A DNA stretch of 64,000 nucleotides from Streptomyces sp. NBC_01235 (GTDB lineage: Bacteria > Actinomycetota > Actinomycetes > Streptomycetales > Streptomycetaceae), in the NCBI RefSeq assembly GCF_035989285.1, contig NZ_CP108513.1, positions 4,278,001-4,342,000 on the forward strand, given 5' to 3'. The position numbers and the translations under genes were made by a program. Each line of letters opens with the position of its first letter. The stretch's first letter is position 1. A model generated the notes under the pieces. It did not search any database, was not told the DNA's origin, and was given only the letters and a program-made list of their open reading frames with translations. Positions 2,469-17,025 of the stretch are shown piece after piece.

Positions 2469-4003
2469 GCCATCCAGACGAGTTGCTGCGTATCGAAGGG
2501 ATACGCAAGACCTTTCCCGGCGTCGTCGCACTCGACAGCGTGGACTTCGATCTGCGCCGCGGCGAGGTGCATGTGCTGCTCGGCGAGAACGGAGCGGGCA
2601 AGAGCACCCTCATCAAGATGCTCTCCGGCGCCTACCGCCCCGACAAGGGCCGCGTTCTGGTCGACGGCACCGAGACCCGCATCCACGGCGCGCAGGACGC
2701 CGAGCGGCTCGGCATCGCCACCATCTACCAGGAGTTCAACCTCGTCCCCGACCTCAGCGTCGCCGAGAACATCTTCCTGGGCCGCCAGCCGCGCCGCTTC
2801 GGCCTCATCGACCGCAAGCGGATGAACGCCGAAGCGGCCCGGCTCCTCGCCCGCGTCGGTGTCGATGTCGACCCGCGCGTCCAGGTGCGCGAACTGGGCA
2901 TCGCCCGGCTCCAGATGGTCGAGATCGCCAAGGCGCTGAGCCTCGACGCCCGCGTCCTGATCATGGACGAGCCCACCGCCGTCCTGACCACCGAAGAGGT
3001 CGACAAGCTGTTCCGCATCGTGCGCAAGCTGCGGGACGACGGCGTCGGCATCGTCTTCATCACCCACCACCTGGAGGAGATCGCCGCCCTCGGCGACCGC
3101 GTCACCGTCCTGCGCGACGGCCGCAGCGTCGACCAGGTCCCGGCGAGCACCCCCGAGGACGAGCTCGTACGGCTCATGGTCGGGCGGAGCATCGAGCAGC
3201 AGTACCCGCGTGAACGCGCCGACGCCGGGGCGCCGCTGCTCAAGGTCCGCGGCCTCACCCGGGCCGGCACCTTCCACGACATCGACTTCGAGGTCAGGGC
3301 CGGTGAGGTCGTGGGCCTCGCGGGCCTGGTCGGTGCCGGCCGTACCGAGGTCGTACGCGCCGTCTTCGGCGCCGACCGGTACGACTCCGGCACCGTCGAG
3401 GTGCAGGGCAGCCCGCTTCGCCCGTATGACGTCAACGCCGCCATGGACGCCGGGATCGGCCTCGTCCCCGAGGACCGCAAGGGTCAGGGCCTGGTCCTTG
3501 ACGCCACCGTGCAGGAGAACCTCGGCCTGGTCACGCTGGGCCGCTCCACCCGCGCGGGTTTCGTCGACCGGGCCGGGCAGCGGCGGGCCGCCGACCGGAT
3601 CTCCGGGCAGCTCAAGGTCCGTATGGCCGGACTGCACCAGCACGTACGGACACTGTCCGGCGGCAACCAGCAGAAGGTCGTCATCGGCAAATGGCTGCTG
3701 GCCGACACCAAGGTGCTGATCCTCGACGAGCCGACCCGCGGCATCGATGTGGGCGCCAAGGTCGAGATCTACCAGCTGATCAACGAACTGACCGCCTCCG
3801 GGCACGCCGTTCTGATGATCTCCAGCGACCTCCCCGAGGTGCTGGGCATGAGCGACCGCGTCCTGGTCATGTCCCAGGGCCGGATCGCGGGCGAACTCCT
3901 CGCCCAGGAAGCAACACAGGACGCCGTCATGGCGCTGGCCGTCAGCGCGAGTGCGGCAACGAACACAGCAGCAAAGGATGTGGAGGTCTCCCGTGGCCAC
4001 TGA
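2465..4003 (+). CDS. rbsA: Ribose ABC importer, ATP-binding protein RbsA
   Basis: A 512-residue cytoplasmic ATPase with two tandem ABC domains, as expected for the RbsA/MglA carbohydrate class (CUT2). The first has Walker A GENGAGKST near residue 40 and Walker B VLIMDEPTAVL near 165. The second has a degenerate P-loop (GLVGAGRTE), signature LSGGNQQKV and Walker B VLILDEPTRGID. The GTG start is chosen because it overlaps the rbsR stop in GTGA and is followed by the expected LRIEGIRKTFPGV. It energises ribose uptake with RbsC and RbsB. Translational coupling to rbsR and rbsC is likely. Confidence 0.93.
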   Translation: MSHPDELLRIEGIRKTFPGVVALDSVDFDLRRGEVHVLLGENGAGKSTLIKMLSGAYRPDKGRVLVDGTETRIHGAQDAERLGIATIYQEFNLVPDLSVAENIFLGRQPRRFGLIDRKRMNAEAARLLARVGVDVDPRVQVRELGIARLQMVEIAKALSLDARVLIMDEPTAVLTTEEVDKLFRIVRKLRDDGVGIVFITHHLEEIAALGDRVTVLRDGRSVDQVPASTPEDELVRLMVGRSIEQQYPRERADAGAPLLKVRGLTRAGTFHDIDFEVRAGEVVGLAGLVGAGRTEVVRAVFGADRYDSGTVEVQGSPLRPYDVNAAMDAGIGLVPEDRKGQGLVLDATVQENLGLVTLGRSTRAGFVDRAGQRRAADRISGQLKVRMAGLHQHVRTLSGGNQQKVVIGKWLLADTKVLILDEPTRGIDVGAKVEIYQLINELTASGHAVLMISSDLPEVLGMSDRVLVMSQGRIAGELLAQEATQDAVMALAVSASAATNTAAKDVEVSRGH

Positions 4004-4967: not shown

Positions 4968-5017
4968 CCGACCTCGTGTCTCCGCTCTCCCCTCCCCCGG
5001 GTCTCCACCCGAAGCCG

Positions 5018-5063
<46 letters not shown>

Positions 5064-5077
5064 CGCAAGGAACAGCC

Positions 5078-6077: not shown

Positions 6078-7058
6078 ATGCACGGCTACGACCTGCTGGT
6101 CGTAGGGTCGGCCAACGCCGACCTGGTGATCGGAGTCGAGCGGCGGCCGGGGGCCGGGGAGACCGTCCTCGGCTCCGACCTGGCCGTCCACCCGGGCGGC
6201 AAGGGCGCGAACCAGGCCGTCGCGGCGGCCCGTCTGGGTGCCCGTACGGCCCTGCTGGCCCGGGTCGGCGACGACGCGTACGGCCGGCTGCTGCTCGACT
6301 CGCAGCGGGCGGCCGGGGTCGACACGGTGGGCGTGCTGGTGGGCGGGGCGCCGACCGGGGTCGCGCTGATCACCGTGGACCCGTCGGGCGACAACAGCAT
6401 CGTGGTGTCGCCGGGCGCGAACGGCCGGCTGACGCCGCAGGACGTACGGGCGGCAGCCCGCCTGTTCCACACCTCCCGCGTGGTGTCGGCCCAGCTGGAG
6501 ATCCCCCTGGAGACGGTGGTCGAGGTCGTACGAAGCCTGGCGCCGGACAGCCGCTTCGTGCTGAACCCCTCCCCGCCGCGCCCCTTGCCGGCCGAGGTGC
6601 TGGCGGCCTGCGACCCGCTGATCGTCAACGAGCACGAGGCGAAGGTGATCCTCGGAGAGGCCGGGGCAGACGCAGGGGCCGGTGACCGACCCGAGGACTG
6701 GGCGCGGGCCCTGCTCGCGAAGGGTCCGAAGTCGGTCGTCGTGACGCTGGGTTCGCAGGGCGCGCTGGTGGCCTCGGCGGAGAGTGTGGTGCTGGTGCCG
6801 TCCGTGGAGGTGGCGGCCGTGGACACCACCGGTGCGGGCGACTCCTTCACGGCGGCGCTGGCGTGGAAGCTGGGCACGGGTTCGTCCCTGGCCGAGGCGG
6901 CGGCGTTCGCGGCGCGGGTCGGGGCGGCGGCGGTGACCCGGCGTGGCGCGCAGGACTCCTTCCCCACGGCGGAGGAGGTGGCCTCGCTGGGCCATCAGCG
7001 GGAGCCGGACAGCGCGCCCGGGGCTGTCGCCGCTGCTCGGCGAGGTGAGTCCCTGTGA
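6078..7058 (+). CDS. rbsK: Ribokinase
   Basis: A 326-residue PfkB-family sugar kinase. It shows the N-terminal substrate-binding signature (GGKGANQAVAAARLGA) and the C-terminal anion-hole and base motif DTTGAGDSF, with the catalytic aspartate at about residue 255. A TAAGGAA site lies just upstream of the ATG. It phosphorylates ribose to ribose 5-phosphate after import. Its stop overlaps the rbsD start by four bases. Confidence 0.93.
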   Translation: MHGYDLLVVGSANADLVIGVERRPGAGETVLGSDLAVHPGGKGANQAVAAARLGARTALLARVGDDAYGRLLLDSQRAAGVDTVGVLVGGAPTGVALITVDPSGDNSIVVSPGANGRLTPQDVRAAARLFHTSRVVSAQLEIPLETVVEVVRSLAPDSRFVLNPSPPRPLPAEVLAACDPLIVNEHEAKVILGEAGADAGAGDRPEDWARALLAKGPKSVVVTLGSQGALVASAESVVLVPSVEVAAVDTTGAGDSFTAALAWKLGTGSSLAEAAAFAARVGAAAVTRRGAQDSFPTAEEVASLGHQREPDSAPGAVAAARRGESL

Positions 7059-7444
7059 AGAAGGCCGGGATCCTCAACCGTCATCTCTCCGGAGCGATCG
7101 CCGAGTTGGGGCACGGGGACGGGGTGCTGGTGTGCGACGCCGGCATGCCGATACCGGACGGTCCCCGGGTCGTGGACCTCGCCTTCCGTGCGGGGGTGCC
7201 GTCGTTCGCGGAGGTGGTCGAGGGGCTGCTCGCCGAGCTGGCCGTGGAGGGCGCCACGGCGGCGACAGAGGTCCGGGAGGCGAATCCGGCGGCGGCCGCT
7301 CTGCTGGACGGGCACTTTCCCGCACTGGCCCTGGTCCCGCACGAGGAGCTGAAGAGGCTGTCGGCGGGGGCGCGGCTCGTGGTGCGCACGGGCGAGGCGC
7401 GACCGTACGCGAACGTGCTGTTGCGGTGCGGGGTGTTCTTCTGA
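7055..7444 (+). CDS. rbsD: D-ribose pyranase
   Basis: A 129-residue protein close to the usual RbsD length. The GTG start at 7055 overlaps the end of rbsK. The N-terminus shows the family pattern GILNRHLSGAIAELGHGD, with the likely catalytic His20 and Asp28 (VCDAGMPIP). The C-terminus (RTGEARPYANVLLRCGVFF) carries the conserved Tyr-Ala-Asn segment. It interconverts beta-pyranose and beta-furanose ribose, supplying the form used by ribokinase. It is the last gene of the operon; a hairpin terminator follows at 7520. Confidence 0.93.
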   Translation: MKKAGILNRHLSGAIAELGHGDGVLVCDAGMPIPDGPRVVDLAFRAGVPSFAEVVEGLLAELAVEGATAATEVREANPAAAALLDGHFPALALVPHEELKRLSAGARLVVRTGEARPYANVLLRCGVFF

Positions 7445-7519
7445 GGCCTGCGCGAGCGACGTTCGCCTGAGGCCTGCGCGACCTTCGGGTCCCCGCACGC
7501 CTCGGGTCTGCGAAAGCCT

Positions 7520-7560
7520 CGAGGGGGTCCGGTCCGTCGACCGGGCCCCCTCGGCTTTTC
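7520..7560 (+). terminator. Rho-independent terminator of the rbs operon
   Basis: CGAGGGGGTCCGGT at 7520-7533 pairs with ACCGGGCCCCCTCG at 7540-7553 (14 bp with one G-U) and is followed by GCTTTTC. Confidence 0.8.
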
Positions 7561-7868
7561 CCCTCCGTACCAGAACCCCCGTGATCCCCCCCGGATCCCC
7601 CTCCAGAAGCCCTGATGCCATGTACGACACGCATGGGGCGGTAAGGGTTGCACGGTCTTCGGGGAATCTTTCGCAGTGAATTCGGCATGCATTCGGTGCG
7701 GAACAGGTGAGCGAAGAGAACAAGCCAACGGGATATACCGGATGTATCAAACAATCCCGTGCATATTCCATCATTTACGGTGAACCCCCCAGGTCAGGTG
7801 GGCGATATGCCGGAATTTTCCCGCATGATGACCTTGTCTCCCCCGCCTCTCCCACCAGGAGTACGACC
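7561..7868 (+). promoter_or_regulatory. AT-richer leader region upstream of the hydrolase gene
   Basis: This 308-base stretch between the rbs terminator and the next ATG is clearly richer in A and T than its surroundings (about 7655-7800). That fits promoter DNA for the downstream gene. No convincing operator or small gene was found. A CAGGAG ribosome-binding site occurs just before 7869. Confidence 0.4.
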
Positions 7869-9077
7869 ATGTCCGAAACGACCGAGCCCAACGCCGGTAC
7901 GTTCACCCTCGGCGATCCGCTGACCACCGAACCCTCCACCCCGGTCGAGGTGCCGGAGCACGACGAATGGACGCTGCCGAACGGCTTCGCCTGGATCTTC
8001 CCCGGCGAGGGCAACGACACCGGTGGTCTCGTCCGGCCCGTGCTCATGGCCGACGGCTTCAATCTCGGCCGGAGCGAGCTCGACAAGCTCTACCAGGGCC
8101 TGGAGGGCGGCTACCCGTTCGTCAGCGAGCTGCGCCGGCGCGGCAGGGACGTGATCCTGCTCGGCTACGAGGAGCGCAGCGCGTCCATCCTGGACAACGC
8201 GCAGGCGGCCGAGGCCGCCATCATGCAGGCCATCGCCGAGCGGCACGGCAACGCCCCACTGGTCGTCGGCGGCTTCAGCATGGGCGGCATCGTCACCCGC
8301 TACGCGCTGGCCAAGCTGGAGACGCAGAGGATGGACCACCAGACCGCGCTGTACTTCTCGTACGACAGCCCGCACCGCGGCGCCTCCATCCCCGTCGGCG
8401 TGCAGGCGTTCTCGTACTTCATCCCCTTCCCGAACGACTTCGCCAAGCAGATGGACAGTCCGGCCGCGCGCCAGATGCTGTGGCGGCACTACGACAGGGA
8501 CACCGGCAAGATCGGGGTCGCCCCGGAGCGCACGGAGTTCCTGACCGCGCTGGAGCGGTTCGGCGGCTGGCCGATGATCCCGAGCAAGATCGCCGTCGCC
8601 AACGGCCGCGCCGACGGGGTCGGCCTGCCCGACGTACCGCCCGGCGACGTCGCGCTGCGGATCGACCGGATCTACCCCGGCACCACCTTCTACACCCAGG
8701 CCCAGGGCGACGACGTGACGGTGGCCTACCTGAACCGGAGGTTCCCCTCGGCCGAGAAGACCATCACGACCAGCGGCTTCCCGGAGCTGGACGGCTCACC
8801 GGGCGGCACGCTGCACACGTACAAGATCCTCGCCGACACGATGGTGAAGCTCGGCGGCACGGTGGACCTGCGGCACGAGGAGGTGTGCTTCGTCCCGTCG
8901 GTGAGCGCGGTCGCCATCCGTGACGTCGAGCGGCAAGAGGACCTGTACACGAAGATCAACGAACTCCCCTCGCACGAGAGCGAGTTGGACGAGTTCCTCT
9001 GCTCGTCCACGACCACCGAGCACACGGCCATCACCGAGGAACTCTGCAACTGGCTGCTGGCCCGCCTCCCTGACTGA
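7869..9077 (+). CDS. Alpha/beta hydrolase, lipase/acylhydrolase-like
   Basis: A 402-residue protein. The nucleophile elbow GGFSMGG places Ser137 at the expected position after a strand and helix. A candidate acid residue lies in FSYDSPHRGA, and a C-terminal histidine in GGTLHTYKI could complete the triad. No signal peptide is visible, so it is probably cytoplasmic. The ATG at 7869 is chosen for its GGAG site; the longer in-frame extension from 7707 covers AT-rich leader DNA. The substrate cannot be read from the sequence. It appears monocistronic. Confidence 0.8.
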   Translation: MSETTEPNAGTFTLGDPLTTEPSTPVEVPEHDEWTLPNGFAWIFPGEGNDTGGLVRPVLMADGFNLGRSELDKLYQGLEGGYPFVSELRRRGRDVILLGYEERSASILDNAQAAEAAIMQAIAERHGNAPLVVGGFSMGGIVTRYALAKLETQRMDHQTALYFSYDSPHRGASIPVGVQAFSYFIPFPNDFAKQMDSPAARQMLWRHYDRDTGKIGVAPERTEFLTALERFGGWPMIPSKIAVANGRADGVGLPDVPPGDVALRIDRIYPGTTFYTQAQGDDVTVAYLNRRFPSAEKTITTSGFPELDGSPGGTLHTYKILADTMVKLGGTVDLRHEEVCFVPSVSAVAIRDVERQEDLYTKINELPSHESELDEFLCSSTTTEHTAITEELCNWLLARLPD

Positions 9078-9101
9078 CCGATCCCCGCGCCTTGCACCAC
9101 C

Positions 9102-9142
9102 GGGGCCGCCCCGTCCGCTCACACCCGGCGGAGGGCGGCCCC
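9102..9142. terminator. Possible bidirectional terminator between convergent genes
   Basis: GGGGCCGCCC at 9102-9111 pairs perfectly with GGGCGGCCCC at 9133-9142, with a 21-base loop. It sits between the hydrolase stop and the convergent gene ending at 9119, and overlaps the last codons of the latter. There is no T run, which is common in Streptomyces. Confidence 0.45.
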
Positions 9143-9445
9143 GTCCTCACTCCGCCCACCGAGCCGCGCTCCCCGGCTCTCGGCCACCCTCCTGACGTCC
9201 CGCAAGGACTCGACGAGCCGCCGGGCGAGGTAGCGGAGTTCGGCGCCGGTCGCCCGTTGCTCCGCGAGGAGGGCGTCGGCGTGGCCGAGGAGGGCGTCCG
9301 CCATGCCGAGTTGTACGCACTCGACGTCGTCCGCCATCCGCCACACATAGCCCGTCCCGTCGCCCACGAGATAGCAGGGCTTGCCCTCGGGCCCCGTCCA
9401 GGGCAACAGGCGGGCGGCCGGCTCCTCGCGTCCCGCGCCGCTCAC
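9119..9445 (-). CDS. Conserved Streptomyces-type hypothetical protein
   Basis: A 108-residue soluble protein from GTG at 9445. A short N-terminal strand region (KPCYLVGDGTGYVWRMADD) is followed by a long helical region (VQLGMADALLGHADALL) and RYLARRLVESLRDVRRVAESRGARL, which looks coiled. Small proteins of this form commonly sit beside XRE/DUF397 loci in Streptomyces (general knowledge, not checked here). The start overlaps the stop of the upstream small gene by four bases (GTGA), implying coupling. Function unknown. Confidence 0.65.
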   Translation of the reverse strand: MSGAGREEPAARLLPWTGPEGKPCYLVGDGTGYVWRMADDVECVQLGMADALLGHADALLAEQRATGAELRYLARRLVESLRDVRRVAESRGARLGGRSEDGAALRRV

Positions 9446-9690
9446 CCGTCGCTCCCCACACGAGGCCAGAACAGCGAGCCGACGCCCACTCCGCGAACGG
9501 CGGACGGCACGTCAGGCGACACGTCAGGCGGCGGGCGCTCTCCCGTGCCGTGGGCCGTCGGGCCACCGACGTAGGGGCACGAGTACGGACAGAGGGGCGG
9601 GACGGACGGCGCGGGCGGCGTGCCGTGGTGCCTGCGCGTCGGGGAGAACCTCCCGAACGTCCTGAAGAACCGGGCGATCAGACGTGTCAC
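9442..9690 (-). CDS. Small Pro/Arg-rich hypothetical protein
   Basis: An 82-residue protein from GTG at 9690. It has an Arg-rich amphipathic N-terminus (TRLIARFFRTFGRF) and a Pro-rich remainder (CPYSCPYVGGPTA). The GTGA overlap with the gene at 9445 and the same strand support it as the first gene of a two-gene unit divergent from the XRE regulator at 9817. Composition gives no function, and the start is uncertain. Confidence 0.5.
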   Translation of the reverse strand: MTRLIARFFRTFGRFSPTRRHHGTPPAPSVPPLCPYSCPYVGGPTAHGTGERPPPDVSPDVPSAVRGVGVGSLFWPRVGSDG

Positions 9691-9781
9691 GTCAACCTGC
9701 TTCCACCTGCGATGACTTCGCTCTGTTGTGAATCACTCACAGCGTGGGGTCGGCGATGGCTACTCTGCTAGTGCCTGGAGG

Positions 9782-9800
9782 TTGACAACGCATTCGTCAA
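9782..9800. promoter_or_regulatory. Inverted repeat just upstream of the XRE/DUF397 pair
   Basis: TTGACAACGCATTCGTCAA has matching TTGAC/GTCAA arms and lies 17 bases before the ATG at 9817. It is placed to act as an autoregulatory operator for the XRE protein. Functional assignment is inference. Confidence 0.4.
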
Positions 9801-9816
9801 GTTGGGAGTTGGCAGC

Positions 9817-10641
9817 ATGCCGAAGCCTCGAACACCTCGGACGCAACGGGAGAAGTACGGGGAGGAACTGAGGCTGCGGCGGACGGCAGCCGACCTCACG
9901 CAGGAGGAACTGGGCGACCAGGTCGTGTGCTCGCCCACACTGATCAGCCACTTCGAGGCGGGCAGGCGGTTGCCGAAGCCTGACGACGCGCAGCGGATCG
10001 ACCGAGTACTGGGCACGGATGGGTTCTTCGCACGCTGGCTGGAGGACTTGGACAGCAAGTACGACAGCAGCTTCGCTGCGGCAGCTGAACTGGAACGACA
10101 GGCCACCCTGATCCAGCAGTTCGCCCTCACCCTGGTTCCTGGCCTGTTGCAGACCCCCCACTATGCACGGGCCGTGTTCAGCGCGTACCGGCCCAACCAC
10201 TCCGCCGAGGAACTTGACAGGGAAGTTGTCATTCGAACAGAGCGTGCCCGAATTCTGGACGGGCCGTTGAAGCCGGTTGTCTGGACGCTGCTCGACGAGG
10301 CCGTGCTAAGACGCCGTGTCGGTGGCCGACAGGTCATGGCCGAACAGCTGCACAAGATCGCGGACATGGCAGAGATGGGACGGCTGAGGCTCCACGTACT
10401 ATCGAACGCTGTCGGGGCTCACCCGCTCCAGCAGAGCCTGCTCACACTCATGAGCTTCGAGGACTCCGCCCCCGTTGCCTACGCCGAAGGCTTCCTCACC
10501 GGCAACTTGATGGATGATCCGGCGCTGGTGGCCGCCAGCCAGACGGCCTACGCTCTAGCGCTGAGTGACGCGTTGTCACAGCAGGAGTCACTGGCCATCG
10601 TCAGGTCGGCAGCAGAGGAACACGCACATGGTCAACAGTGA
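9817..10641 (+). CDS. XRE-family regulator with DUF5753 domain (Scr2/WhiJ-like)
   Basis: A 274-residue protein. Residues about 12-65 form a Cro/CI-type helix-turn-helix (YGEELRLRRTAADLTQEELGDQVVCSPTLISHFEAGRR). The remainder matches the DUF5753 pattern (IQQFALTLVPGLLQTPHYARAVF, VWTLLDEAVLRRRVGG, LRLHVLSNAVGAHP). GGGAG lies about nine bases before the ATG. It overlaps the downstream DUF397 gene by 14 bases. Such pairs, for example SCO4441/SCO4442, are reported as toxin-antitoxin-like or developmental and antibiotic regulators in Streptomyces. Base composition is less GC-rich than the flanks. Confidence 0.85.
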   Translation: MPKPRTPRTQREKYGEELRLRRTAADLTQEELGDQVVCSPTLISHFEAGRRLPKPDDAQRIDRVLGTDGFFARWLEDLDSKYDSSFAAAAELERQATLIQQFALTLVPGLLQTPHYARAVFSAYRPNHSAEELDREVVIRTERARILDGPLKPVVWTLLDEAVLRRRVGGRQVMAEQLHKIADMAEMGRLRLHVLSNAVGAHPLQQSLLTLMSFEDSAPVAYAEGFLTGNLMDDPALVAASQTAYALALSDALSQQESLAIVRSAAEEHAHGQQ

Positions 10642-10846
10642 GCACACGCTCTCCGACTCATCCGCTCTCACCGGCTGGTACAAGTCCAGCTACAGCGGCG
10701 GCAATCAGGGCGAGTGCCTTGAGGTCGCGCGTGGCCACGTCCGCGTGCCCGTCCGTGACAGCAAGGCCGTCAGCGGCCCGGTGGTGGTCTTCTCGGGGCG
10801 CGGCTGGTCGGAGTTCGTCGGCGCGGTCAAGGTCGGCAGTCTCTAA
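10628..10846 (+). CDS. DUF397 protein (small partner of the XRE regulator)
   Basis: A 72-residue protein with the complete DUF397 pattern: a WYKSSYSGGNQGECLEVA core, VRVPVRDSK in the middle and a final strand (WSEFVGAVKVGSL). The ATG at 10628 overlaps the XRE gene, so the two are probably co-translated. DUF397 proteins (BldB and Scr1 relatives) work with their XRE partner, in some cases as toxin or antagonist. Its stop overlaps the stop of the convergent XRE gene. Confidence 0.88.
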   Translation: MVNSEHTLSDSSALTGWYKSSYSGGNQGECLEVARGHVRVPVRDSKAVSGPVVVFSGRGWSEFVGAVKVGSL

Positions 10847-11694
10847 CCCGGGTTCAGTGACCGTCGCGCCGCGTTGATCAGGTTGTGTGCGTCGGTGCCG
10901 TACACCGCGGACTCCCTGAGCGTGCTCCAGACGCGCAGGTACGTGGCCACGGCGTCGTCGTCCTCGATCCACAGCTCCGCGTGCCACGTCTCCGTGACGA
11001 CCTGGTGGTCGTCGTAGATCCAGAAGCCCGAACCCGGTGGCAGCTTCAGGGGTGCGCCGGACGGGACGATCCCCAGTTCCACCGTCTCCAGGCCGACGAC
11101 TCCGCTCAGGTGGCTCAGCTGCGCCGCGAGCACCGAAGGCGGGCAGATCAATGCGCGCAGGACGGGCTCCCACAAGATGATGTGGTAGCGCCTGCCGGAC
11201 GCGTAGAGGAGTTCCCGGCGTTTCATTCGAGCGCGCACGGCGTCGTCGATGTCGCGTGGCGACTGGTGAAGGTCGGCGAATCGGGAGAGTACGGAGCGTG
11301 CGTACTCGGGTGTCTGGAGGATGCCGACGATCCACGACGACTCCCAGGCACGCAGCGTGCGGGCGTTCGCCTGCGCGGTGTTGTGCGCCTCTTGTACGGG
11401 GCGGTTTCCGCCGGCTGTCTGACGTCTCCACGACCGGATGTGTGACTCGAACCCACGGAGACGAGCGAGGAGTTCGGGATACGTCTCCGGTTGGCCGACG
11501 GCATCCGCGTAGGCACGCAGGTCTTCGGAGGCGGCCGTCTGGTTGCCCAGCTCGAGCTTGGAGATCTTCGAGTTCGGCCAGCCGAGACGCCTTGCGAGTT
11601 CGGATGCGGTGAGCCGACCACCAGGCGCGCCGAGCCGGAGTTCACGGAGCCGTGCCCCGAGGGCCACCCGCGCCTGCTGGTAGTCGGTACTCAC
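10843..11694 (-). CDS. Second XRE-family regulator with DUF5753 domain
   Basis: A 283-residue protein from GTG at 11694. The helix-turn-helix (TASELARRLGWPNSKISKLELGNQTAASE) covers roughly residues 28-60. The DUF5753 part includes SSWIVGILQTPEYARSVLSRF, YHIILWEPVLRALIC and SGFWIYDDHQVVTETWHAELW. It converges on the first XRE/DUF397 pair, overlapping DUF397 by four bases. The gene upstream on the same strand encodes a DUF6879 protein, a frequent partner. Three 11-base repeats lie just ahead of its start. Confidence 0.85.
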   Translation of the reverse strand: MSTDYQQARVALGARLRELRLGAPGGRLTASELARRLGWPNSKISKLELGNQTAASEDLRAYADAVGQPETYPELLARLRGFESHIRSWRRQTAGGNRPVQEAHNTAQANARTLRAWESSWIVGILQTPEYARSVLSRFADLHQSPRDIDDAVRARMKRRELLYASGRRYHIILWEPVLRALICPPSVLAAQLSHLSGVVGLETVELGIVPSGAPLKLPPGSGFWIYDDHQVVTETWHAELWIEDDDAVATYLRVWSTLRESAVYGTDAHNLINAARRSLNPG

Positions 11695-11703
11695 CGGATC
11701 CCG

Positions 11704-11736
11704 CCTGTTCTCTTCCTGTTCTCTTCCTGTTCTCTA
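11704..11736. repeat. Three 11-base tandem repeats upstream of the second XRE gene
   Basis: CCTGTTCTCTT starts at 11704 and 11715, and a third near-copy starts at 11726 (minus-strand reading AAGAGAACAGG). The array spans the DUF6879 stop and the XRE leader. The 11-base period would place the copies on nearly one face of the helix. Its role is unknown. Confidence 0.7.
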
Positions 11737-12483
11737 CTCCTGCGCGGTCGTCGAGACCGCGAAGTGTTCGTACGGGACGGCGTAGTGCCACGCGGCGTCC
11801 CACGCCTGAAGGTACCGATTGACCGCTGTCGGCTCGGTGATGAGTTGCGCGCCTTCGAGGTTGTCGGCGGCGTCGAAGGCGAGCAGTGCAACCAACCGGG
11901 CGTCGAAGATCCAGAAGTCCTCGTCCGACAGGTACAGGCGAACGGCGTCGTCACGTGACAGGTTGTGGACCTGCTCGCCGAGCGCCGTGTTCTTCTCCGC
12001 ATGGGCCAGCAGGTAACGCTGGCCTGTGGTGGCCGGTTGGTCGATGACACGGACCCGTTCTACACGCGCGCCCTGGGCTACCTGCCGTCGGATCGTTGTG
12101 CACCAGGGAGTGTGCATGTCCCAGGTGGGTGCCTCGCCGCGCATGAACTGGGCGTAGGTGTCGGTCTCCTCGTCCGAGGCGTATCGGCGTCGGGTTTCCA
12201 AGCGCCGTGCCGTGTGGGCGAACTTCTCGAAGAGACCGGTGAACGCGTCAAGGCCGATGACGACTGGAGTGTCGTCACGCGGCCCGAAGTCGACCAGCGT
12301 GTTGCGCGGCACGATCACCGCGACTTCGTTGTCCGGATCGAAGAACTGGAGCCGTTTTAGATCGGTGGCGTCAGTGAGGGGGCGTCCCTGGACAATGACC
12401 TCGCCGGTGTCGAGGTCCTCATGGACGGCCGGGCAGCCGCCCTCTCCGCTACCCGTGCCGTTGAAACGCAGCCGTCGCGCCAT
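11734..12483 (-). CDS. DUF6879 protein with an additional N-terminal domain
   Basis: A 249-residue protein. The second of two ATGs (12483) is chosen because GAAGGGA stands eight bases before it but abuts the first (12489). Residues 1 to about 75 form a distinct unit (RLRFNGTGSGEGGCPAVHE through IVPRNTLVDFGP). Residues about 85-245 fit DUF6879 (RRLETRRRY, HTPWCTTIRRQVAQGARVERVRVIDQP, GQRYLLAHAEKN, DFWIFDARLVALL, CDS end near WDAAWHYAVPYEHF). DUF6879 proteins usually accompany XRE regulators, as here. Biochemical role unknown. Confidence 0.78.
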   Translation of the reverse strand: MARRLRFNGTGSGEGGCPAVHEDLDTGEVIVQGRPLTDATDLKRLQFFDPDNEVAVIVPRNTLVDFGPRDDTPVVIGLDAFTGLFEKFAHTARRLETRRRYASDEETDTYAQFMRGEAPTWDMHTPWCTTIRRQVAQGARVERVRVIDQPATTGQRYLLAHAEKNTALGEQVHNLSRDDAVRLYLSDEDFWIFDARLVALLAFDAADNLEGAQLITEPTAVNRYLQAWDAAWHYAVPYEHFAVSTTAQE

Positions 12484-12568
12484 GGACATTCCCTTCGCCT
12501 GTGAGCCGACCGACCTGCCCAGCGTGACCTGGCAGTTGAGTCGCGACCACGGGTCTCCCCCACCCTCG

Positions 12569-12617
12569 CGAGAAAAGACGAGAAAAACAACGAAGGGGGC
12601 GAGAAAACCCGAGAAAA
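12569..12617. promoter_or_regulatory. Four phased CGAGAAAA boxes between divergent genes
   Basis: CGAGAAAA begins at 12569, 12579, 12600 and 12610, giving spacings of 10, 21 and 10 bases. All copies therefore face the same side of the helix. The boxes sit in the 204-base gap between the DUF6879 gene (minus) and the gene at 12688 (plus), in an A-rich patch unusual for this DNA. They look like a binding array for a local regulator, possibly one of the XRE proteins. Confidence 0.6.
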
Positions 12618-12687
12618 TCGTCTCGGGCCGGTCGCCTGACTTCTCCTACGCTCCGGTTCACGCAGAACGCGCCGAAGGAGGAATCCA

Positions 12688-13188
12688 ATGACCGTCACAC
12701 TGGACCGTCCCACGAGCACCCGCACTCGGGATCCGAAGGAACTCCTCAATGCCGTCCGACCGCACGTCAGGCATCTGACCGTCAACGTGCTCGACAGCGA
12801 CATGCCCCTGTGGGACCGCGAGGTCGCCCTGCTGCTGCGTGACCACACAATGGTCCGTGACATGGCCGAACGCGTCCTTGCCAACGCCGTCATGTACACC
12901 ATCGGCTGCATCGAGCACCCCGAAGTGCACCTCGGTGTCGGCAAACTCGTCGACATCGGCGTCCACCAGCTCATCCTCGACACTCCGGTCTGGTGGGCCC
13001 TGTGCGACGTCTACAACGAGGGCCGGTACAAGCACCACGCCCCGTTCATCCAGCGCCGCAGGGACGGCCTGTGCCTGCGCACTGCGGACTTTCTGAAGTC
13101 CATCGGCTTCGCCGTCGACGAGGAGCTGTGGGCCATCGACGGCGCGGATTGCTCGCCGTGTGACAACAAGGTCCCCGACAGCCACTGA
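12688..13188 (+). CDS. Small conserved protein, resembling bacterial glycine-rich-domain (GRDP-like) proteins
   Basis: A 166-residue protein with a strong GAAGGAGG site before the ATG. The core (VLANAVMYTIGCIEHPEVHLGVGKLVDIGVHQLILDT) and the following WWALCDVYNEGRYKHHAP recall actinobacterial proteins annotated as glycine-rich domain-containing, where a VDxxWHxLIL segment precedes an HH pair. Here the Trp of that motif is Val. It ends with two close cysteines (CSPC). A methyltransferase gene follows after 75 bases on the same strand. The family link is tentative and the function unknown. Confidence 0.65.
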   Translation: MTVTLDRPTSTRTRDPKELLNAVRPHVRHLTVNVLDSDMPLWDREVALLLRDHTMVRDMAERVLANAVMYTIGCIEHPEVHLGVGKLVDIGVHQLILDTPVWWALCDVYNEGRYKHHAPFIQRRRDGLCLRTADFLKSIGFAVDEELWAIDGADCSPCDNKVPDSH

Positions 13189-13263
13189 GCCCGCGCAGAC
13201 GGGCCGCTGCCTCACAGGGCCGCGGCCCGCCTGTGGACCGCTCGTCCGAGGAGGAACCCGAAC

Positions 13264-13920
13264 TTGCCCGCCGAACACGACCTCGTCGCCGAGACCGATC
13301 TGTGGAACACATACGCCGAGACCGCCTTCAAGGAGGACGCCGAACCGGTGTTCCACTGGACCCAGTACGCCGGACACGGCCCCGGGCCCGAGCTTCTCGG
13401 CACCCCCGCCTCCGTACTGGAGATCGGCTGCGGAACCGGGCGGGCGCTCGCCCACCTCGCCGGGCTCGGCATCCGTGCGCGAGGCGTCGACCTGTCACCG
13501 GTCATGGTGGAGAAGACCGCCGAGAAGTGGGGCGACACCGGTGCGGTGTTCGTGCGCGCGGAGGTCCTGGAGTATCTGCGTGCCTGCGAGGACGCCTACG
13601 ACGCGATCTACTCGATCTTCGGCGCGGCCTGGTTCACCGACCCCGGCCGTCTTTTCCCGCTCGTCCGTCGGCGGCTCAACCCGGGCGGTGTCTTCGTCTT
13701 CTCGCAGCCTCCGGCCATCCCGGGGGCGTACGGGCCGCAGGGCATGTATAAGGGGGGCTTTGCGGGCAAGGCCATGTTCACCTACCGCTACAGCTACCGC
13801 CCCGCCGTCTGGGAGCGCCTGCTCACCCGGGCCGGCTTCGCCCGGGCCCGGGCGTATGTGCTCGACGCGCCGAAGCCGGGACACATCGGCACACTGATCG
13901 TGCGTGCGGAGGCGGACTGA
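13264..13920 (+). CDS. Class I SAM-dependent methyltransferase
   Basis: A 218-residue protein. A TTG at 13264 is chosen because GAGGAGG lies nine bases upstream. Motif I (VLEIGCGTGRALAHLAGLG, residues about 51-69) and motif II (GVDLSP) identify a Rossmann-fold methyltransferase of the ubiquinone/small-molecule type. The middle (YDAIYSIFGAAWFTDPGRLFPLVRRRLNPGG) fits motifs IV-VI. The substrate is unknown. It probably shares a transcript with the small protein upstream and converges on the HNH gene 23 bases away. Confidence 0.85.
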   Translation: MPAEHDLVAETDLWNTYAETAFKEDAEPVFHWTQYAGHGPGPELLGTPASVLEIGCGTGRALAHLAGLGIRARGVDLSPVMVEKTAEKWGDTGAVFVRAEVLEYLRACEDAYDAIYSIFGAAWFTDPGRLFPLVRRRLNPGGVFVFSQPPAIPGAYGPQGMYKGGFAGKAMFTYRYSYRPAVWERLLTRAGFARARAYVLDAPKPGHIGTLIVRAEAD

Positions 13921-13943
13921 GCGGCATCCAAAGGGCGGTCGCG

Positions 13944-14705
13944 TCAGGGGCTGAAGCCCTTGAAGTCCAGGAACGCGGCTCGCAGTTCGGGATCTCGGAG
14001 GAGGGTGAGTACGTCGTCCTCCCCGACGAACAGGGCGTCGGCCGACGGGTGCCCGGACTGGTGGAACATGGCGACCAGGACGTCGACGAGGGGGCGGTTC
14101 CAGGCGACCCGGACGATCTCCGTGGCCTTCTCGCGCTGGCCCTTGTCCATGGCTATGCGCCACAGCTCGATGGAGTACCCGGCCGTCGCGTAGGCGTCCA
14201 TACGTCCCTTGACCAGGACCGCCCTGGCGTTGAGGCCGAACACGTCGATGCAGGCCCGGCCCCGGTCGGTCAGTCCCCGGTACGTTCCGAGCGGGAGCAC
14301 CAGGTGCAGGTGGTCCAAAGGGTCCTCGGCCGTCGGGTCTACGAGCAGGGGGTTGCCCTCGGCCGTGGTCGGGAACCGGTTCCGTTTCTGGTTGCTGTTG
14401 CAGTACGAGCAGGCGAGCAGGTGGTTGAGCCAGTCGAACGTGCGCAGCGGAGTGAGGCTCTTCGGCTCGAAGTGGTCGATGTCCGTGCCCTGGCTGTCAC
14501 CGCAGTACATGCAGCGTTCGTGACCGGGAGCCATCTCCGCCAGGGCGGTGGCGAGTGCGGGGCGGACCTGTCGGCGGTTCGCCCATAGGTCCTTCGCCCT
14601 GGCCTTGCGGGCCTCCGCTGTGGGCTGCTGCCGGATGTCCTCGGTGTAGTCCCCCAGTCTCGCCATCGTGACCGGCGACAGGGCGGCACGCGGCAGCCGG
14701 ATCAC
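13944..14705 (-). CDS. HNH endonuclease, PtuB-like (TIGR02646-type)
   Basis: A 253-residue protein. It has a zinc-framed HNH module: Cys65 and Cys68 (CMYCG), the DIDHF motif with His78, then Cys99 and Cys102 (CSYCN), followed by RNRFP and GNPLLVDP. This order matches the PtuB/TIGR02646 nucleases that act with AAA ATPases in Septu and some retron defence systems. The start overlaps the stop of the ATPase gene by four bases, so the two should be made together. The predicted role is DNA cleavage triggered or targeted by the ATPase. Confidence 0.82.
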   Translation of the reverse strand: MIRLPRAALSPVTMARLGDYTEDIRQQPTAEARKARAKDLWANRRQVRPALATALAEMAPGHERCMYCGDSQGTDIDHFEPKSLTPLRTFDWLNHLLACSYCNSNQKRNRFPTTAEGNPLLVDPTAEDPLDHLHLVLPLGTYRGLTDRGRACIDVFGLNARAVLVKGRMDAYATAGYSIELWRIAMDKGQREKATEIVRVAWNRPLVDVLVAMFHQSGHPSADALFVGEDDVLTLLRDPELRAAFLDFKGFSP

Positions 14706-16093
14706 TCCTCCCCGCCCTCCTCGTCCTCCCCGCCGTCAGCGATCTCTTCCGCCAGCCGGTGGAGGTGGGCCGACACCTCGTCCACGCGGGCCGACGGCGA
14801 ACTGGTGAGCCGCTCCTTCAGTTCCTGGTAGCGGGCGAGCGACTCGGGGGACGTGGCCCCGTCGTAGATCTGTGCCTCCAGGTCCACGAACTCGGCCCTG
14901 GCCTGTTCGGCCCTCTCGGAGTACGGGGTGTCCAGGCCGAACAGGTCCGAGAGAACCGCGTCGTCGCCGCTGCCGTACACCACCCGGTCGTACAGGTCCT
15001 GGTCGATGACCTCGGGCGGGCGCGCCTCGTCCACGCCGGGCAGCCGGATCAGGCCGCCGGGATCCGCGGCCTGGCAGATGTACGGGCTGTGGGTGGTGAC
15101 AATGAACTGGATGCGGGGGAAGTGGGCGGTCAGCCACGGACCGATCCGGCGCTGCCAGGAGACGTGCAGATGGGCGTCGATCTCGTCGATGATGACGACG
15201 CCTGGGGTCATCAACGCGATCGAATTGCCTCTGGCCTCCCAGAGGTTGGACTCCCAGAGGTCGGCACCGAACACGTCGTGGAACTGCTTGAGGATGTCGA
15301 CGACAAGGGCCGCCACGGTCCGGAATCCGTCACTCATCTCCCGCAGCGGAAAGCGACTGCCCTGACGCTCGACCCACAGGCCCTCGGAGTCGACGTCCAT
15401 GATCCGGTACCCGTCCGGCAGGAGCCCGTCCCCGAGGAGCGCCAGTGCGAACGCCTTCAGCCCGGCGGCGCCCCCTCTGCCTTCCAGCGCGCGCAGATGC
15501 TGCTCGATCAGCCAGGCGACCCCTTCGGCGAGCGAGGCGTCCTCGTGAAAGAGGCTCGCCTGCCTGGCCACGGGCCCGGACGCCAGCATCAACCGCTGCA
15601 CCTCGCCGGAGCCTCCGGCCATCCGCCGGAACGGCCCGTAGGCCGCGCAGAACCAACCCTCCGGGTTGTCCGCCCAGGGGCCGCGGCGGGCGATGCTGGT
15701 CCGGGCCCTGGTGTAGACGAGTTCGTCCAGTGCGGGTTGATAGCCCTTGGGCGGTACGGACCATGCGAGCCCCGCCCTGAAGGAGCCGCTGGGCGGGCGC
15801 CCCTGGGAGAACCGGTCGTGCCCCGTGTCCCGGGTGATCTCGACTTCGAGCCGGGCCACCCTGGCTCCCTGCGTCACCCAGTTCTCGAACCCCGGCATCA
15901 GACTGCGGGCCACCGCCGGTCCGCTCAGCGCCAACGCCATCGCCCGCAGCAGCGTCGTCTTGCCCGAGCCGTTGCGGCCCGCGAGCACCGTCCACCCCGC
16001 ATGACTGCCGTCGGGGCGCGTCAGGGTGAGGTCGACCTGACGGGGACCGTGAAAGGACTTGATGTCCTGCACGATGATCCGGCTGACGTACAT
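14702..16093 (-). CDS. AAA/SMC-like ATPase, PtuA-like
   Basis: A 463-residue ATPase of the OLD/RecF-like class. Walker A is GRNGSGKTT (residues 39-47) and a signature-like LREMSDGFRT lies near 255. Walker B is VVIIDEIDAHLH near 300 with a D-loop directly after, and an H-switch VTTHSPYI near 335. No TOPRIM domain follows, which separates it from OLD nucleases and fits PtuA. The C-terminus is acidic (GGEDEEGGEE). It is the first gene of a two-gene unit with the HNH nuclease and probably acts as its phage-responsive partner. Confidence 0.82.
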   Translation of the reverse strand: MYVSRIIVQDIKSFHGPRQVDLTLTRPDGSHAGWTVLAGRNGSGKTTLLRAMALALSGPAVARSLMPGFENWVTQGARVARLEVEITRDTGHDRFSQGRPPSGSFRAGLAWSVPPKGYQPALDELVYTRARTSIARRGPWADNPEGWFCAAYGPFRRMAGGSGEVQRLMLASGPVARQASLFHEDASLAEGVAWLIEQHLRALEGRGGAAGLKAFALALLGDGLLPDGYRIMDVDSEGLWVERQGSRFPLREMSDGFRTVAALVVDILKQFHDVFGADLWESNLWEARGNSIALMTPGVVIIDEIDAHLHVSWQRRIGPWLTAHFPRIQFIVTTHSPYICQAADPGGLIRLPGVDEARPPEVIDQDLYDRVVYGSGDDAVLSDLFGLDTPYSERAEQARAEFVDLEAQIYDGATSPESLARYQELKERLTSSPSARVDEVSAHLHRLAEEIADGGEDEEGGEE

Positions 16094-16142
16094 GGGCGTC
16101 GGCGTCCGTTCGTTCGGGTGTCCTGCCCGATCCTACGGCCGT

Positions 16143-16173
16143 GGCCTGCCCGTCCCCCGCGCACGGGCAGGCC
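16143..16173 (-). terminator. Hairpin terminator after the sugar-isomerase operon
   Basis: GGCCTGCCCGT at 16143-16153 pairs perfectly with ACGGGCAGGCC at 16163-16173, with a nine-base loop. It stands just beyond the stop at 16186 for minus-strand transcription, in the gap before the ATPase gene. There is no clear T run. Confidence 0.6.
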
Positions 16174-16185
16174 GCTCGGGCGTCA

Positions 16186-17025
16186 CTACGCCGTGTGCTC
16201 CACGAACCGTGCCGCCGTCTCCGCCAGCACTTCGCGGCCGTCGCGTGCCCACAGCACGTCGTTGAACAGTTCGACCTCGATGGCGCCGGTGTAGCCGGCC
16301 GCCTCCACGTAGGCCTGCCATTCGCGCATGTCGATCGCGCCGTCGCCGATCTGGCCGCGGCCGTTCAGCACGCCCTCGGGCAACGGCGTCGTCCAGTCGG
16401 CGAGTTGGAAGGTGTGGATGCGACCGGAGGCGCCCGCGCGGGCGATCTGGGCGGGGGCCTGGTCGTCCCACCAGATGTGGTACGTGTCCACCGTGACGCC
16501 GACCTGGTGGGCCGGGAAGCGTTCCGCGAGGTCCAGGGCCTGGGTGAGGGTCGAGACCACGCAGCGGTCGGAGGCGTACATGGGGTGGAGTGGCTCGATG
16601 GCCAGCTTCACCCCGTGGTTCTCGGCGTAGGGGCCGAGCTCCGCCAGCGCGTCCGCGATGCGCTCCCGCGCGCCGTGCAGGTCCTTCGAGCCGGACGGGA
16701 GGCCGCCGGAGACGAGGACCAGCACCTCGGTGCCCAGGGTCGCGGCCTCGTCGATGGCTCGGCGGTTGTCGGCCAGGGCCGCCGTCCGCTCGGCCGGGTC
16801 GATCGCCGTGAAGAAGCCGCCGCGGCACAACGTCGTCACCGTCAGGCCCGCGTCGCGGACCAGCTTCGCGGTCGCCTCCAGGCCGTACGTCTGCACCGGC
16901 TCGCGCCACAGGCCGACGTTCGTCACGCCCAACTCACGGCAGGCGTCGACGAGTTCGGGCATGGACAGCTGCTTCACCGTCATCTGGTTGATGCTGAAGC
17001 GGGTCAGGTCGGCACTAGCGGTCAT
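16186..17025 (-). CDS. Sugar phosphate isomerase/epimerase (AP endonuclease 2-like TIM barrel)
   Basis: A 279-residue protein of the xylose-isomerase-like TIM-barrel family. Barrel metal-binding patterns include VKLAIEPLHPMY, VGVTVDTYHIWWDD, IHTFQLADW and GAIEVELFND. The ATG at 17025 overlaps the end of the DUF993 gene by four bases. It is the last gene of a three-gene unit (dehydrogenase, DUF993, isomerase) that looks like a sugar or cyclitol degradation operon. The exact substrate cannot be read from sequence. Confidence 0.85.
   Translation of the reverse strand: MTASADLTRFSINQMTVKQLSMPELVDACRELGVTNVGLWREPVQTYGLEATAKLVRDAGLTVTTLCRGGFFTAIDPAERTAALADNRRAIDEAATLGTEVLVLVSGGLPSGSKDLHGARERIADALAELGPYAENHGVKLAIEPLHPMYASDRCVVSTLTQALDLAERFPAHQVGVTVDTYHIWWDDQAPAQIARAGASGRIHTFQLADWTTPLPEGVLNGRGQIGDGAIDMREWQAYVEAAGYTGAIEVELFNDVLWARDGREVLAETAARFVEHTA

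Follow-up and report, generated by a model that had tools for sequence, protein, structure and literature searches.

The window analyzed here is a 64,000-nucleotide stretch of the Streptomyces sp. NBC_01235 genome (positions 4278001 to 4342000 of an 11.09-Mb single contig) that carries, on its reverse strand, two genes resembling ptuA and ptuB of the Septu defense system. The ptuA-like gene (14702 to 16093) encodes an SMC/Rad50-type ATPase of 463 amino acids, and the ptuB-like gene (13944 to 14705) encodes an HNH endonuclease of 253 amino acids with zinc-binding cysteines. The two genes are adjacent and run in the same direction, as expected of Septu members, and share the four bases GTGA at 14702 to 14705 on that strand, where the GTG start codon of ptuB lies over the TGA stop codon of ptuA. 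These coordinates, strands, and the overlap agree with those given in a first-pass annotation of this DNA. The identical four-base overlap was found in 56 of 66 nonredundant intact pairs, a set from which any locus where ptuA or ptuB was absent or short had been removed before counting, and it may reflect translational coupling. The PtuA and PtuB identities were correlated across the same 66 pairs (r = 0.91; 0 of 2000 permutations as high). A promoter scan upstream of ptuA found none, although Streptomyces promoters are poorly covered by such a scan, and a structured leader was rejected there on an unconvincing folding z of −1.5. An 11-pair hairpin, possibly a terminator, is predicted at 16143 to 16173, between ptuA and the neighboring isomerase gene.

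The predicted ATPase contains a Walker A motif (GRNGSGKT, residues 39 to 46), a signature-like SDG (254 to 256), the motif DEIDAHLH (303 to 310), and H335-S-P, which together supply the Walker A, signature, Walker B, and H-switch elements expected of PtuA as an SMC-like ABC ATPase. Residues G39, N41, G42, G44, K45, S254, G256, D303, E304, D306, H308, H310, H335, S336, and P337 were invariant in all 72 aligned PtuA rows. A Pfam scan at E values up to 0.1 placed AAA_21, AAA_15, and AAA_23 over their cutoffs and SMC_N at its cutoff, and it returned no match to a TOPRIM domain. An OLD family nuclease was rejected on this ground, as its C-terminal TOPRIM nuclease domain found no match, and the earlier description of an SMC/OLD-like ATPase lacking TOPRIM holds on both the scan and the conserved motifs. 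PtuB carries C65-x2-C68, D75-I-D-H78-F, N94, C99-x2-C102, and the stretch FP...GNPLLVDP (residues 111 to 124), so that the CxxC-DIDHF-CxxC core and the tail attributed to it from the letters alone can be read directly in its residues. The four cysteines, H78, N94, and N103 were invariant in 48 of 48 aligned PtuB rows, D75 and D77 varied, and the Pfam HNH model scored 23.1 bits against a cutoff of 21.4.

The ATPase ends in an acidic tail (codons at 14702 to 14749 on the reverse strand, stop codon included), with 9 aspartate or glutamate residues among the last 15. The tail is modeled at low confidence, with block means of the predicted local distance difference test (pLDDT) of 72, 69, and 53 toward the end of the protein, and it is confined to close relatives: of the 27 intact pairs at PtuA identities of at least 69.5%, 25 had four or more acidic residues in the tail stretch, against 1 of 39 pairs below 64%. 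The tail had been called unusually acidic; the acidity is real, but the sequences compared indicate that it is a trait of the subclade to which the window protein belongs rather than of this protein only.

Both proteins were matched over nearly their full lengths by Septu models from PADLOC. The top model for PtuA was PDLC00269 (608 bits, E = 2.4e-183, residues 1 to 445) and that for PtuB was PDLC00317 (312 bits, E = 1e-93, residues 1 to 245), with the next Septu models dropping to 192 and 111 bits, respectively. The predicted folds of both proteins had solved Septu or retron PtuA and PtuB as their best matches; neither a nondefense ATPase as the best match nor an HNH fold without the PtuB core, the two outcomes that the first-pass annotation named as refuting its Septu assignment, was seen. 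In a single-sequence search, the nearest solved protein to PtuA was E. coli PtuA 8ee4 (E = 5.7e-17) and PtuB came nearest to Ec78 PtuB at an E value, 0.011, that is not significant. A profile search against solved proteins led from PtuA to 8ee4 at 5.2e-25 and from PtuB to an Ec78-type PtuB at 7.8e-12. Two observations weigh against the assignment: identity to the solved PtuA and PtuB proteins is only about 14 to 23% in structural alignments, and the NCBIfam PtuA, PtuB, and TIGR02646 models all score below their cutoffs. The profile evidence anticipated for the pair was forthcoming from PADLOC, and TOPRIM (OLD) was absent as foreseen, but TIGR02646, a model described as that of a retron-system HNH protein, fell short. 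Since the fold and the active site are those expected, we read the nuclease as a divergent PtuB. Taken together, the profile matches, modeled folds, and gene layout make it very probable that the gene pair is an intact stand-alone (type I) Septu operon, and by its anatomy the pair is an ordinary Septu.

The effectors of retron I-A are PtuA/PtuB homologs and fill many of the fold-match rows, which raises the alternative that the pair serves as effector to a retron with its reverse transcriptase and RNA encoded at another locus. No reverse transcriptase was found near the pair; the RVT_1 matches in the genome, at contig positions 112874 to 113545 (over the cutoff) and 2095678 to 2095815 (below it), are megabases away. 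No RNA in the window reached the Rfam gathering thresholds. Retron RNAs are thinly covered in Rfam. The retron models also remained far below their cutoffs (NF041760, 97.4 of 500 bits; NF041761, 23.2 of 150; TIGR02646, 30.5 of 52.15). The retron effector was rejected on the distance of the reverse transcriptases, the model cutoffs, and the window's lack of an Rfam RNA, and we regard it as scarcely credible; the genome and window scans thereby uphold the first reading of the pair as a Septu standing alone. Decay into a nonfunctional remnant is highly improbable as well. A remnant does occupy the same site in one relative (L159), and some loci have a short ptuA or no ptuB match, but in the window both frames are open and both the core motif residues and the overlap are intact.

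The closest functional reference for the pair may lie under another name. The PADLOC mREase_IV models, PDLC03660 (431 positions) and PDLC03661 (249 positions), were second best for both window proteins (PtuA, 384 versus 608 bits; PtuB, 191 versus 312 bits), so that Septu models were ahead where a Type IV assignment would have PDLC03660 and PDLC03661 as the best match of both. For a protein from locus L092, the PDLC03660 score was 459 bits and the PDLC00269 score 510, and among 10 Streptomyces-type proteins scanned from a search with it, 6 (P0126, P0129, P0132, P0135, P0139, and P0141) scored 637 to 891 bits on PDLC03660 versus 511 to 520 on PDLC00269, the other four being higher on PDLC00269. 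In a 57-row PtuA tree, the window protein and those six fell in one 52-row clade (support 100/99). Within it, the window-type and mREase_IV-type proteins fell in two separate subclades, one of 26 rows (98/94) and the other of 18 rows (99/97), with weak support (84/45) for the two as nearest sisters; the placement of row L125, an oddly composed sequence on a very long branch, is unsafe. PDLC00269 was also the best model for Hymenobacter and Methylobacterium plasmid proteins outside the 52-row clade, which makes the mREase_IV type part of a wider Septu family. When P0141, an mREase_IV-type protein, was compared with solved structures, the top 12 matches (E = 3.5e-13 or better) were Septu or retron PtuA entries.

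The wording of the mREase_IV model description is that of a REBASE quotation in an excerpt of PMC6769113. PDLC03660 and PDLC03661 therefore probably represent ScoA3II+III (Sco3261-62), an identification drawn from the model description rather than from sequence. A hunt for the Sco3261-62 sequences yielded close fits to PDLC03660 but no S. coelicolor name among the 120 listed of 264, and genome scans gave no locus as close. We take Sco3261-62 to be an ATPase and an HNH protein. In the table excerpted from a review, in vivo tests scored the pair positive for 5-methylcytosine (m5C) and negative for N6-methyladenine (m6A) (PMC3874153). SCO3250 to SCO3270 are described, in the relevant section of PMC1934918, as a 14-kb islet, Gi-4, located at a tRNA-Arg and made up mostly of pSAM2-related genes. 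S. lividans, a laboratory host, reportedly has no Gi-4. The literature searched, which took in few subscription papers, gave no link of Septu with Sco3261-62, and PMC12707154 had no mention of ScoA3, Septu, or PtuA.

PtuA residues 61 to 180 (codons at 15554 to 15913 on the reverse strand), the longest fast-diverging part of the protein, follow the Walker A motif and are only 0.10 to 0.26 identical between window-type and mREase_IV-type proteins. Six core segments are 0.64 to 0.79 identical and other segments are intermediate, with residues 271 to 300 also at 0.26. From this comparison of sequences, residues 61 to 180 are a candidate specificity region.

The gene layout, the intact catalytic residues, the family and fold, and the lack of a retron partner nearby come from this analysis, and complex formation and cleavage of DNA or tRNA are taken from other PtuAB members. 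By analogy with those members, PtuA would oligomerize and carry PtuB, whose translation would be coupled to that of PtuA on a shared mRNA. The nuclease would be held inactive in the resting cell; when DNA of a phage or plasmid enters, a change in the nucleotide state of PtuA would allow PtuB to cut nucleic acid, most likely the DNA of the invader. Excerpts of PMC11555353 report that PtuAB of E. coli ATCC 25922 targets nicked DNA and that PtuAB of retron-Eco7 depletes tRNA-Tyr; according to part of PMC13096335, Septu EcB88 cuts the variable loop of tRNA-Tyr and requires its Walker and HNH residues. The PtuAB pairs characterized to date do not all attack the same target, so the target given here is putative, and this weighs against the scheme just outlined. 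We give about an even chance to DNA cut irrespective of modification, a clearly smaller one to DNA recognized through a modification, and a smaller one still to tRNA.

If PtuAB proteins of this clade were abortive-infection ribonucleases cutting a host tRNA, as EcB88 and retron-Eco7 are reported to do with tRNA-Tyr, the precedents would be relatives by fold, but fold ties are uninformative on substrate, and by sequence the window PtuA is closest to 8ee4, the PtuA of an E. coli Septu, with Ec83 almost level in the profile search; we consider this unlikely. It is possible, but doubtful, that the pair instead performs modification-dependent (Type IV) restriction, in which PtuA or PtuB would sense m5C or another mark and PtuB would cut, as for ScoA3II+III in vivo. 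The second rank of the mREase_IV models for both proteins, the supported clade shared with the six PDLC03660-favoring proteins, the PtuA-type fold matches of P0141, and the m5C result for Sco3261-62 are in line with it. Set against these are the far higher Septu score of the window PtuA, the route by which Sco3261-62 was equated with the mREase_IV models, and the divergence of residues 61 to 180, by which specificity may not carry over from one subclade to the other. The host genome also has two adjacent C5-methyltransferase genes. PF00145 was present in 26 of 31 carriers versus 48 of 80 noncarriers (odds ratio 3.5, Fisher p = 0.024), the reverse of the depletion predicted under Type IV action; in permutations that took genome size into account, 18 of 500 were as extreme, relatedness being left uncontrolled. 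Carriers were 31 of the 40 genomes with a match, after removal of G049, G091, G155, G165, G207, G231, G250, G268, and G271 (divergent, truncated, or without a ptuB match), and noncarriers were 80 of the 264 genomes without a PDLC00269 match. As carriers were not poorer in these genes, the attempt to read Type IV action from C5-methyltransferase depletion was rejected. A doublet of adjacent PF00145 C5-methyltransferase genes lies at 4467203 to 4469482 of contig 1 in genome G000, and adjacent doublets also occur in G068, G744, and G004. The PADLOC authors state, in an excerpt of PMC8565338, that Septu type I is often accompanied by an operon that includes an m5C methyltransferase (Hma).

The Septu-like pair lies in a variable stretch of 8.7 kb (7445 to 16185) between rbsD (7055 to 7444; RbsD_FucU) and an operon that starts at 16186 and comprises a sugar isomerase-like gene, a DUF993 gene, and a Gfo/Idh/MocA gene. 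Among 26 named pair loci (18 from Streptomyces and 8 from Actinokineospora), the flank fetched beyond ptuA contained sugar-cluster genes in 15 of the 18 Streptomyces loci, either directly beside that gene or as far as about 7.3 kb from it, and in none of the 8 Actinokineospora loci. A second set of 29 pair loci, at least 5 of them overlapping the named set, had the sugar cluster in 12, all with PtuA identities of at least 70%. Two further loci at 75% identity had only rbs genes (L180) or only an HTH-DUF397 pair (L192), and the remaining 15, at 63% or less, had no sugar-cluster genes. Eleven pairless relatives were fetched at the isomerase: the rbsD-isomerase gap was 0.2 to 1.2 kb in four (L160, L161, L165, and L166), six had other arrangements, and L159 retained the remnants of both ptu genes noted above. 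In the window, unlike in locus L007, 4.8 kb of inserted DNA separate ptuB from a hydrolase-like gene (7707 to 9077) whose Pfam matches are all below cutoff. At an E value of 1e-40, PDLC00269 had a match in 31 of 295 sampled same-genus genomes, truncated and divergent copies included, and PDLC03660 in 29 of the 295, all of them within those 31; across the class, 9 of 394 genomes had a match at 1e-30. Because close relatives mostly keep the pair at the same site, it would appear to have been long established in its subclade, with largely conserved synteny and occasional loss, and not to have arrived recently; the site also gains other genes. The accessory island first proposed is borne out in so far as the stretch is variable and the pair is present in a minority of genomes, but most close relatives share the site. 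As a defense island it finds little backing, since PADLOC scans of five neighboring proteins gave only general helix-turn-helix (HTH) and S-adenosylmethionine (SAM) methyltransferase matches and a stray weak ThsB match (E = 0.06). A phage origin was rejected: tblastn with PtuA against phage records returned two records with partial matches covering 24 to 27% of the query, and scans of viral_contigs turned up nothing related to either P0141 or the window PtuA.

Some pair loci depart from the common layout. In addition to those with a short ptuA or no ptuB match, genome G454 has two ptuA-like matches in tandem (L093 and L100), and at L010 PtuB is 89% but PtuA 78% identical to that of the window, a hint of recombination within the operon. 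A module adjoining the pair on the ptuB side (9119 to 10846) consists of a small open reading frame without a Pfam match, an HTH_31/DUF5753 regulator, and a DUF397 gene, and is found on that side in 10 of the 18 named Streptomyces loci (in one, L019, ptuB gave no match). Two divergent loci, L173 and L198, have a similar (about 50%) module on the upstream side of ptuA. HTH/DUF397 modules are common in Streptomyces, and the neighborhood with the pair could be due to chance. A second HTH/DUF5753-type regulator and a DUF6879 gene (10843 to 12489) form part of an insert that is absent there in L007 and L012, and a 166-amino-acid protein without a Pfam match (12688 to 13188) adjoins a SAM methyltransferase gene (13264 to 13920). 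Elsewhere in the window, ARAGORN predicted a 92-base tRNA-Gly(acc) at 3309 to 3400 that is unconfirmed by Rfam at its threshold and perhaps false, and a PHPHPH-coding repeat at about 5010 to 5075 falls within a 5′ extension of the rbsB frame and may precede the true start.

The antiphage role of the pair is putative, and what is probably its nearest tested relative was, according to the excerpted review table, assayed for restriction of methylated DNA. We tentatively suggest, as an idea with the odds against it, that a major Septu lineage (PDLC00269/PDLC00317), frequent in actinomycetes, might be a modification-sensing restriction system of one family with ScoA3II+III, in which PtuA would be the sensor and residues 61 to 180 would determine the DNA mark or structure that activates PtuB. 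If so, the trigger of Septu, at least in the window lineage, would be a chemical mark on DNA, and two separately named defenses, Septu and the methyl-DNA restriction of ScoA3II+III, may be one. Should both the kinship and m5C restriction hold, the barrier to DNA transfer into antibiotic-producing Streptomyces would gain a mechanism. Given its probable relation to a methyl-DNA restriction pair that has been assayed, the window lineage of Septu has a trigger that can be addressed directly by experiment.

Among known systems, the window pair is close to Septu type I of E. coli (PtuA/PtuB; PDB 8ee4, 8eea, and 8sux), although it is only about 17 to 23% identical to those chains and differs by the acidic tail of PtuA. 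It has the PtuA and PtuB folds in common with the retron I-A effectors (Ec78/Eco7 and Ec83), but unlike them it has no reverse transcriptase nearby and scores below the retron model cutoffs. Like the window pair, the mREase_IV pair (PDLC03660/PDLC03661) is an ATPase plus an HNH protein, and the 52-row PtuA clade is common to both; its PtuA is about 50% identical to that of the window, whereas region 61 to 180 is nearly unrelated. Sco3261-62, as described in the section of PMC1934918 cited above, sits in the pSAM2-like islet Gi-4, whereas the window pair occupies a chromosomal site common to its relatives.
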